Shown: piece by piece, positions 34,228 through 35,960 of the stretch
How the letters are laid out: every line of letters starts with the position of its first letter
How positions within the stretch are numbered: position 1 is the first letter of the stretch
Source of the DNA: Pseudomonadota bacterium
GTDB lineage: Bacteria > Pseudomonadota > Gammaproteobacteria > Steroidobacterales > Steroidobacteraceae
Length of the DNA: 64,000 nucleotides
Reading direction: 5' to 3'
Assembly: GCA_025351005.1 (NCBI GenBank)
Contig: JANXWS010000040.1
Location: forward strand, 62,001 to 126,000
The notes under the pieces: model-generated
What the model saw: the letters and a program-made list of their open reading frames with translations, nothing else
What the model was told of the DNA's origin: nothing
The model's database searches: none
Position numbers and translations under genes: made by a program

Positions 34228-35121
34228 TCAGGGCGAGCGTCCGGTCGGCAGGTAGCGGTAGACCGGCAGCGTCGAGAGGTACGGCCGCGGCTCGATCTTG
34301 GACCGCCGTCGCCGTGGCGGGCGCTCGGCCAGTTCAGACGCTGCCGGCGGATAACGGACGAGCGGAATTTGCGTGCGCTTGCCGAGTGCGAACAGCAGCG
34401 GCAATTCGGCGGCGACCTGGATCCGGCCCCGGCCGCGACGGTCCAGACCGTCAAAGGTCACGTTGGCGCGCACGTTCTCGTAATGATCCCGCACCAGCGC
34501 GAGATGCGTCTCGCGTGCCGCCAGCCGCTCGAGCCGTGCCCGATCGGCGACGGCGCCCGGGCCGTCGGCATTGGCGAGCAGCTCGGCGATCCGCTCGACC
34601 GGTTTGCGGTAGACACTGCGGGTCCGCGCGCGGGTGTAGACGACCTTGGCCGGATGGCCGGTCAGGATCGGGATCCTCCGGTAGGCGGCCAGCAGGTTGA
34701 GGTCGCTGCGCCGCAGGTTGCGGAGCACCACGCGGATCACCGGCAGCACTCGCGTTGCCGCTGCGGCGCCGGCGCGCAACGGCACCCGCATCCTGATTCG
34801 CTGCAGCGGGGCGCAAATCGACTTGAGCTCGCTCTTTGCGGTATTGACCGACTCCGCCAGCAGCAGCGCATCTCGCGAGGCGCCGATCACGCCGAGGCAG
34901 ACGACCGACGATCCCGGATCGTCCTCCATGCCCAGATCGATCGCGGCGTACGCTCGGCACGCGCGCTCGATCGCGTTGCGGTCCGACTCCGCGCCGGCAA
35001 TGCTGACCCAGCCGCGGCCGTGCGCGAGGGCCTGGACGAGTTGTTGCAGCCGGCGCTCGACGTCCCGCAGCGCCGCGGCGACCGCCTCACGTGCCCGATC
35101 GATATCCACGGGGTCGATCAA
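34228..35121 (-). CDS. Tus-like DNA replication terminus-binding protein (candidate)
   Basis: A 297-residue, strongly basic protein that I align, from memory, along its whole length with E. coli Tus (309 aa). The best block is LNLLAAYRRIPILTGHPAKV followed by YTRARTRSVYRKPVERIAELL, against Tus LITLNAYRTLTVLHDPATL and ANKHIIKNLHRDEVLAQLE. Weaker matches are an N-terminal helix pair, ESVNTAKSELKSI against INKLKTTFEHI, and a terminal PRPYLSTLPVYRYL strand. Tus binds Ter sites and halts replication forks from one side. No signal peptide, helix-turn-helix or nuclease motif was seen. The start is TTG at 35121 after AAAGGG; an in-frame TGA lies two codons upstream. GTG at 35109 is an alternative. 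Identity is probable, not proven. Confidence 0.62.
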   Translation of the reverse strand: MIDPVDIDRAREAVAAALRDVERRLQQLVQALAHGRGWVSIAGAESDRNAIERACRAYAAIDLGMEDDPGSSVVCLGVIGASRDALLLAESVNTAKSELKSICAPLQRIRMRVPLRAGAAAATRVLPVIRVVLRNLRRSDLNLLAAYRRIPILTGHPAKVVYTRARTRSVYRKPVERIAELLANADGPGAVADRARLERLAARETHLALVRDHYENVRANVTFDGLDRRGRGRIQVAAELPLLFALGKRTQIPLVRYPPAASELAERPPRRRRSKIEPRPYLSTLPVYRYLPTGRSP

Positions 35122-35152
35122 GATTCATACCCTTTCCCGACTATCCGCAAGC

Positions 35153-35182
35153 ATTATACATACACCGTACAGCACGCATCAA
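35153..35182 (-). promoter_or_regulatory. Promoter of the Tus-like gene
   Basis: On the minus strand, TTGATG (35177-35182) and a perfect TATAAT (35153-35158) are 18 bp apart, giving a transcript start near 35146 and a leader of about 25 nt. It is the best consensus sigma-70 promoter seen in this window. The minus-10 lies inside one of the two 16-bp sites, so a protein bound there would block it. Confidence 0.7.
35154..35169 (-). promoter_or_regulatory. 16-bp site, copy A (candidate Ter/operator)
   Basis: TTATACATACACCGTA on the plus strand is the exact reverse complement of copy B at 35255-35270. It overlaps the TATAAT box and spacer of the Tus-like gene promoter, as TerB overlaps the tus promoter in E. 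coli. Confidence 0.6.
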
Positions 35183-35254
35183 AACCAACCCTACAACCCC
35201 CACACCCATAAACCCCCTCCCAATCTATCAAACCAGCCAGCAACAAAAAGATTA
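35170..35254. other. G-depleted spacer between the inverted sites
   Basis: The 85 bp between the two 16-bp sites are C- and A-rich on the plus strand. From 35177 to 35235 there are 59 consecutive bases without a single G, in a genome of about 70% GC. Several short C-runs with A/T gaps occur (AACCCCC, CCCATAAACCCCC). No ORF crosses it sensibly. Confidence 0.8.
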
Positions 35255-35270
35255 TACGGTGTATGTATAA
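35255..35270 (+). promoter_or_regulatory. 16-bp site, copy B (candidate Ter/operator)
   Basis: TACGGTGTATGTATAA is a perfect inverted copy of site A. Its TATAAC (35266-35271) may be the minus-10 of the rightward riboswitch transcript, with a start near 35278; no good minus-35 was found. GTATGTATAAC resembles the E. coli Ter core GnATGTTGTAAC but is one base shorter. Confidence 0.6.
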
Positions 35271-35324
35271 CATCGTCCGCCGCGACTTGTACGAAATCGG
35301 CGCCAGCCGTAGGATCGCCGCGCT

Positions 35325-35510
35325 GAAGGTGCCGGCCCGCTCACGCGGTCCGGAGAATTGGGAAGCCGGTGCGATACCGGCGCTGCCCCCGCAACGGTAA
35401 TGAAGCGCTGAGCTCGGCGAGATGACCACCGGCCCCCGACGGGACCGGGAAGGTGCCGAGCCGGTCCGACGTTCGCATCGGACCGCTTCAGAGCCCGGAA
35501 ACCAGCCTTT
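35325..35510 (+). ncRNA. Cobalamin riboswitch
   Basis: The conserved core is at 35360-35400: GGGAAGCCGGTGCGATACCGG, then CGCTGCCCCCGCAACGGTAA, matching the B12-box region of cobalamin riboswitches, including the GGTG..A..CC hairpin. The 3' part AGAGCCCGGAAACCAGCC (35490-35507) matches the conserved closing segment. AAGG near 35326 can pair with CCTT near 35506 as the closing helix. An internal hairpin CGGTCCGA/TCGGACCG lies at 35462-35484. Adenosyl- or methylcobalamin binding would lower downstream expression. No B12 transport or synthesis gene follows: after it come only short frames and a convergent gene. Confidence 0.9.
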
Positions 35511-35525
35511 GGCAACTGCCCTGAT

Positions 35526-35650: not shown

Positions 35651-35743
35651 ATGGACCGGAAGATGGAATGCCCAAGCCTGCTTCGCGCCGGAGCCCGATG
35701 CGCGTCGCTCACCTCATCCGCGGAGGTGGGCCGTGTCGCGTGA
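35651..35743 (+). CDS. Candidate 30-aa peptide after riboswitch
   Basis: A short frame, MDRKMECPSLLRAGARC and onward to RVA, starts 6 bp after GGGGAG. It overlaps the start of the next frame by 11 bp. There is no family resemblance. It could be a leader peptide whose translation couples to the following frame, or chance. Confidence 0.25.
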   Translation: MDRKMECPSLLRAGARCASLTSSAEVGRVA

Positions 35744-35960
35744 ATGCGCCCGCGTGCGCGCCCTGCAACAATCCGAGCGCCTGCGCCACGTGCTGCAGTC
35801 CTACGATCGCATCGAGCTGATGGGCTACGCGATCACCAAGGCTGCCGCACCGGTTGAACTCGCAGCCGGCGAGCCGCCCGACACACGCGACGACGTCGGC
35901 AGTCTTGCGACGGAGGGGATCGCTGCACACCACGCGGCACGAGAGTTGCCAGACGGCTGA
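35733..35960 (+). CDS. Hypothetical protein after cobalamin riboswitch (75 aa)
   Basis: A 75-residue frame opened by GTG at 35733 with GGAGG 6 bp upstream, the best ribosome site downstream of the riboswitch. The first half (VRALQQSERLRHVLQSYDRI, ELMGYAITKAAAPVEL) has a normal, helix-forming composition and high GC at third codon positions, as real genes here do. The second half is less convincing. It has no membrane span, metal-binding cluster or known domain. If real, it is the only target of the B12 riboswitch. A competing frame (35668-35820) encodes a Cys-rich tail and is less likely to be coding. Confidence 0.4.
   Translation: MSRECARVRALQQSERLRHVLQSYDRIELMGYAITKAAAPVELAAGEPPDTRDDVGSLATEGIAAHHAARELPDG

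Follow-up and report, generated by a model that had tools for sequence, protein, structure and literature searches.

Ter sites in Escherichia coli form widely spread arrays, and plasmid R6K, whose terminus consists of two opposed Ter sites tens of base pairs apart, relies on its host's Tus. Excerpts of a review describe this single plasmid terminus as blocking forks from both sides (PMC10331603). In Type I Tus fork traps an innermost Ter adjoins tus, and narrow Tus traps span 56 kb in Edwardsiella tarda and 18 kb in Dickeya paradisiaca; E. tarda needs no more than two sites, and its skew flips at their midpoint (excerpts of PMC8707476). In Bacillus subtilis, terI lies only ~0.1 kb from terII with opposite polarity and the RTP gene is autoregulated through a ter site in its own promoter (excerpts of PMC13220808 and PMC10331603). 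Using PF05472, Galli et al. 2019 report, in the excerpted text, resident tus only in Enterobacteriales, on chromosome 2 of Pseudoalteromonas and in Aeromonadales, and infer a recent domestication of tus from plasmids (PMC6549158). Among the matches listed in open-licence PubMed Central, none describes a Tus promoter trap with paired sites, and none places Tus in the group considered here.

The window, by which we mean the whole 64,000-nucleotide stretch of Steroidobacteraceae DNA analysed, contains a conserved system in which a diverged Tus is joined to an apparent fork trap of almost point-like width. It resembles E. coli Tus/Ter in having a protein that is homologous by profile and a site overlapping the tus promoter, and differs in that the protein lies beyond the reach of PF05472, the site sequence is another one, and two opposed sites stand ~100 bp apart instead of in widely spread arrays. 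As in the Type I traps described in the excerpts, an innermost site is next to tus, but here both innermost sites are at the gene and only ~0.1 kb is spanned. The layout is convergent with that of terI and terII: in the sources excerpted, two RTP dimers sit on each ter and RTP has no kinship with Tus (PMC13220808, PMC10331603), whereas the window encodes a Tus homologue with short asymmetric sites, and its protein matched no RTP profile (PF02334) in Pfam up to E 10. It also differs from R6K, whose terminus is on a plasmid.

The tus-like gene and its protein

The features of the locus are collected in Table 1. The original prediction had named a 297-aa reading frame, a TATAAT promoter, a 16-bp site overlapping it and an exact inverted copy 101 bp away, and all four were confirmed in the sequence. 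The promoter, the one such found, has 10 of 12 matches, and shuffled sequences give 0.1. A cobalamin riboswitch starts 40 bp from the distal site (35310-35524, plus strand, 89.5 bits) and is followed by a 75-aa reading frame (35733-35960) that belongs to no Pfam family.

Table 1. Features of the tus-like locus, in window coordinates
Feature	Position	Strand	Description
tus-like gene	34228..35121	minus	297-aa ORF, predicted TTG start; family profiles
sigma-70-like promoter TTGATG-18-TATAAT	35153..35182	minus	reads into the tus-like gene
gene-proximal Ter-like site	35154..35169	minus	TACGGTGTATGTATAA on the minus strand; shares bases with the -10 hexamer (TATAAT); conserved in relatives
distal Ter-like site	35255..35270	plus	TACGGTGTATGTATAA on the plus strand; exact inverted copy of the gene-proximal site
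interval between sites	35170..35254	none	85 bp; inferred stopping place for both forks

Searched alone, the window protein finds no Tus match in Pfam, NCBIfam or the PDB, and no Pfam family of any kind up to E 10. The alignment with Tus given in the original prediction was reproduced by family profiles but not by the single protein. We compared three of them: A1, the window family (11 sequences); A2, E. coli Tus with 6 plasmid Tus proteins; and A3, 9 chromosomal proteins matching PF05472, with no window-family sequence among them. The A3 members were drawn from 14 PF05472 matches, with L027 (closest to E. coli Tus), L034 (short, with an apparently broken frame), L038 and L039 (unrelated reading frames by eye) and L040 omitted. 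A1 aligns with A3 end to end over 277 columns (hhalign, 99.9%, E 4.2e-32), A3 with A2 at E 2.7e-12, and A1 with A2 directly only weakly (26%, E 7e-4), all three being E-values of single comparisons. A search of the window's genome with A3 has the window gene as its sole match (E 1.6e-34). The best matches of A3 in the PDB are Tus structures (E 0.005-0.008, with 1ecr on top at E 0.005), and A1 found no Tus structure there. The chain from A1 through A3 to A2, together with the match of A3 to the window gene, points to a Tus homologue beyond the reach of PF05472, and common descent over most of the protein is supported by these comparisons. The original idea of a Tus-like protein gains support from the A1-A3 alignment (E 4e-32) and from that genome search.

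All nine A3 members match PF05472 at E<=1, six of them above the cut-off, as do 3 of the 11 window-family members at E<=1, with a best value of 2.7e-4. Across 369 genomes of the class, PF05472 gives 14 matches at E<=0.01, 8 of them above the cut-off. None reaches the cut-off in the genomes of 60 relatives, where 3 of the 4 best matches, all below it, are window-family genes. PF05472, which had been named for comparison, thus misses the window protein itself, and the three relatives that it does detect score under the cut-off. Since neither the window protein nor any of the 60 genomes gives a match above the cut-off, we call the protein a Tus homologue outside PF05472 as drawn rather than a member of that family.

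Used as a query against the same 60 genomes, the window protein has matches at E<=0.01 in 13. Ten of these, among them the window's own, are genus genomes (out of 15); the others are G057 (2e-14) and, weakly, G029 and G047 (E 0.0015). The A1 profile matches 10 of 296 genomes of the order, those outside the genus being G057, G467 and G643, and no relative was found among viral contigs. Tus-like genes of family f185 (L211-L218) occur in 8 genomes among a 398-genome draw of the phylum. Two Tus-like copies look broken, L218 (in G329) with its match split across two frames and L034 (in G376) with a short frame.

An AlphaFold model built from only two sequences, the window protein and L003, has a pLDDT of 44.8 and a pTM of 0.40, a quality too low for setting it against the Tus structure. 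The cytosine pocket for the C(6) lock of E. coli Tus consists of F140, H144, G149 and L150. In alignment A5, which is uncertain in this region, the L150 column holds Leu in the window protein and the other three hold different residues. Since the lock residues show no clear conservation in the window protein, its arrest chemistry may differ.

The paired sites and their conservation

The two 16-mers (TTATACATACACCGTA) are exact inverted copies whose starts are 101 bp apart, leaving 85 bp between one arm and the other. At up to 3 mismatches the window has no further copy, against 0.02 expected, and none of 100 shuffled sequences had two. Likewise, the longest perfect inverted repeat upstream of the tus-like gene is 16 bp, and 30 shuffles gave at most 10. 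The window's own assembly (G000; 2.7 Mb, 90 contigs, 86% complete) holds the same two 16-mers and no others at up to 3 mismatches, with one for the reversed-pattern control. The site had been read as a Ter core one base shorter, and GTATGTATAAC does resemble the Ter core GTATGTTGTAAC, but the E. coli Ter consensus is unmatched at the pair: at up to 3 mismatches it has 4 matches in the window against 3.2 expected, none of them at the pair. On the gene strand, G+T make up 84% of the interval (35170-35254; z 6.2), and its several runs of G might fold into a quadruplex. In relatives, some intervals are G+T-rich (L009), some are A+C-rich (L012 and, by eye, L199) and others are unskewed.

In the genus, 8 of the 10 genomes with the gene, counting that of the window, have both arms upstream of it (L004, L005, L007, L008, L009, L010, L012 and L013). 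Their longest exact arms measure 16, 16, 10, 10, 9, 10, 18 and 12 bp, respectively, with 43-85 bp between arms. One arm only is present at L006, whose contig begins ~300 bp upstream, and at L011. Compared with 30 shuffles each, arm length is far above in the window, L005 and L012 and above by one base in L007 and L008, and it does not exceed the shuffle maximum in L009, L010 and L013. For L007, L008, L009, L010 and L013 the case for a pair is the common core in a common position and not the length of the arms. This core is TATACATAC in the genus, with TATACATGG in L012 and L013. Gene and pair are both missing from 5 of the 15 genus genomes.

Further sites occur at a distance from the gene. G006 has an extra exact site on a short contig, and G008 has two opposed sites 6.5 kb apart (L188 and L189, at C6 55567 and 62080), one exact and one with a mismatch. 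The skew along this C6 stretch shows no flip. A degenerate close pair stands elsewhere in G008, whose gene has one arm only (L190, C33 25971-26058).

Pairs recur in five Tus lineages beyond the genus. G467, from another family, has an 18-bp pair near-identical in sequence to that of the window, 107 bp apart; pairs of other sequence are found in G643 (18 bp), in the three genomes of family f45 (13-15 bp) and in G229 (15 bp), and 2 of 6 plasmid tus genes have one (15-16 bp). No pair was found at E. coli tus, at the other four plasmid tus genes, in G057 (L014, L198) or in G773 (L219), and no wide pair at the eight f185 loci; one of these, L213, has a 12-bp pair 25 bp apart, with shuffles reaching 10. 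By eye, L213 and L215 have a common single upstream motif, GATAACGGTATA. The plasmid tus genes of Pseudoalteromonas agarivorans and Vibrio alginolyticus (L042 528-725, L045 441-663) have an upstream inverted pair, TGCATGATGGTCTA; in excerpts of the review PMC10331603, the ter site of the Pseudoalteromonas secondary chromosome carries a question mark. Of the 8 genus contigs compared, 5 have a gene for an AhpC-type peroxiredoxin no more than 15 kb from the pair (L059 1793-2446, with counterparts in G014, G009, G004 and G000).

GC skew, site polarity and dif

We located the best single plus-to-minus GC-skew switch per contig in 8 of the 10 gene-bearing genus genomes. G005 and G012 were left out, their contigs being only 7-9 kb long, and the contigs of G008 and G002 were read from 120 kb and 50 kb on, respectively. 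In roughly every second genus contig read, the switch coincides with the pair. Relative to the pair, the switch lies at +409 bp in G006 (172 kb read), -268 bp in G009 (97 kb), +395 bp in G004 (91 kb) and +392 bp in G014 (56 kb, weak), and at -671 bp in G002, whose contig ends 2.6 kb after the pair. It is far off in G000 (+15.1 kb, weak), in G008 (-16.2 kb, no real flip) and in G001 (-26.4 kb), where the split is as strong as in G004. The distance is thus within 0.4 kb in 4 of 8 contigs, within 0.7 kb in 5, and 15-26 kb in 3. The fraction of positions scoring at least as well as the pair is 0.0098 in G006, 0.011 in G009, 0.0099 in G004, 0.033 in G014, 0.16 in G002, 0.19 in G000, 0.67 in G008 and 0.026 in G001, and a rough Fisher combination across all eight, misses included, gives 2.8e-5.

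The flanking genes differ between G006, G009 and G014 on one side and G004 and G008 on the other, and the switch is still at the pair in both G004 and G006; G008 has the downstream flank of G004 yet shows no flip. Coding-strand bias and strand-corrected third-position skew change within ~2 kb of the pair in G006, G009, G004 and G014, and 40 kb off in G000, ~12 kb in G001 and 27 kb in G002; neither shows a switch in G008. KOPS-like octamers were too few to read. The wider proposition that every Tus-like locus sits at a terminus was rejected, as the pairless G377, G163, G277 and G175 show no flip in the sequence read.

Family f45 consists of three genomes of 1.4-1.6 Mb (G232, G088 and G338), in which the exact half-site GGTTATGGGATAA occurs 6, 5 and 7 times, 18 in total; at up to one mismatch there are 21 copies, against 5 for the reversed pattern. 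Two copies per genome form the promoter pair, 89-203 bp from start to start, and this innermost pair is backed by more sites tens to hundreds of kilobases out. These outlying sites are oriented as Ter sites should be: all 12 exact copies beyond the promoter pairs are on the minus strand where the skew is positive and on the plus strand where it is negative. The count comprises 4 of 4 in G232 (nearest 20-kb samples), 2 of 2 and 3 of 3 on the trap contigs of G088 and G338, and 3 of 3 on other contigs, where polarity was predicted before the local skew was read; three one-mismatch copies were left out. By chance this would be expected once in 4096 if the copies were independent, and shared ancestry reduces that independence. 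In G232, a single contig, the pair lies at 324 kb, where the 20-kb sample has a skew of -0.02, between positive and negative stretches and nearly opposite the other skew flip at ~1.1 Mb; the switch is 2.0 kb from the pair in G088 and 24 kb in G338. The f45 sites run minus to the left and plus to the right of the terminus, like TerB of E. coli, which lies on the plus strand at the high-coordinate side of dif.

A clear dif was found in the trap contigs of G001 and G229 only, and in both it lies outside the innermost sites, by 23 kb and 12 kb, respectively. This departs from the rule, reported in excerpts of PMC10331603, that dif lies between the innermost sites. The cumulative skew of G001 reaches its maximum less than 1 kb from dif but 24 kb from the pair, so in this genome the flip is apparently not set by the trap. 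In G229 the pair provides the only exact site copies and the skew is weak. A dif-like match inside the interval of G338 is at chance level (18.5 against 18.0 for the reversed control), and dif-like patterns with 1-2 mismatches occur on other contigs in several genomes, for example G006:C9 and G000:C49.

With respect to the original prediction, the notion of a fork trap is supported by the f45 polarity and by the skew switches found at the pair in about half of the genus contigs, but not by the window's own genome, whose skew is too weak (left -0.003, right -0.017). The genome scan that had been suggested for the 16-mer likewise returned just the pair in the own assembly, and it was in f45 that copies with replichore polarity appeared.

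A probable fork trap at the tus promoter and its alternatives

We consider it probable that the locus is a diverged Tus-Ter fork trap whose innermost two sites lie ~100 bp apart at the tus promoter and whose gene represses itself. The gene product is predicted to bind both 16-bp promoter sites, to arrest forks and to act as its own repressor. By analogy with E. coli Ter, each site would block the fork arriving at its GTATG end. Because these blocking ends face each other, either fork would pass the first site that it meets and be stopped at the second, and termination would be confined to the roughly 100 bp between the sites. Protein bound at the gene-proximal site would lie over the -10 hexamer and should therefore repress the gene that encodes it as well. 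A block to forks from both sides and a regulatory switch had been offered as alternatives; the two are not exclusive, and the best reading is both.

The strongest alternative, which we nevertheless regard as unlikely, is a Tus homologue that serves as an autorepressor only, binding two operators, perhaps with looping, at a locus whose place at the terminus is inherited and where forks are no longer arrested. The position of both sites in the promoter region, one of them over the -10 hexamer, would suit such a repressor, as would the lack of a further 16-mer in the own assembly, the weak skew of that genome, the missing flip of G008 and the flip of G001 near dif instead. An operator pair alone, however, fits poorly with a switch no more than 0.4 kb from the pair in G006, G009, G004 and G014, two of which (G004 and G006) have different flanks, with the extra good sites away from the gene in G006 and G008 and with f45 copies that, away from the gene, keep replichore polarity in 12 of 12 cases.

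Considerably less probable still is a terminus-resident gene whose protein is a Tus relic without site recognition, the sites being bound by another factor. The presence of one arm only at the gene in 2 of 10 gene-bearing genus genomes could be read in this way, but the sites go with the gene: the exact core TATACATACNNCGT occurs in 7 of 10 genus genomes with the gene and in 0 of 5 without it (at one mismatch, counts in several genomes are near those of the reversed-pattern control). Moreover, the site changes where the protein diverges, as in G001 and G012, whose proteins are 44-45% identical to the window's and whose site is CCATGTATAG. That the repeats delimit a small mobile element or form a hairpin by chance is highly improbable: an exact inverted pair does flank 85 bp of odd composition, but it is single in its assembly, has a chance expectation of 0.02 in the window and is kept in place upstream of orthologues despite different intervals and spacings, a conservation that speaks against mobile-element ends.

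The diverged fork trap remains our preferred reading, and the pair marks where the chromosome arms meet in several related genomes, so that both forks may stop near one point. A broader proposal, on which we are close to evenly divided, is that a point terminus at the tus promoter is an old layout in Gammaproteobacteria, that Bacillus arrived at it independently with RTP, and that the wide trap of E. coli is derived. Two opposed Tus-Ter complexes ~100 bp apart would then make the promoter of the terminator gene the end of replication; this view draws on several gammaproteobacterial families and on plasmids.

The window protein falls below the PF05472 profile on which, according to the excerpted text, Galli et al. 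2019 relied (PMC6549158), and several genomes have a member of its family at the terminus. If the proposed mechanism is true, the trap is narrow enough to fix the meeting point of the forks, and the purpose of a fork trap could be tested directly by deleting or relocating a single 200-bp element. New protein-site pairs of this kind could also serve as orthogonal fork barriers in laboratory work.
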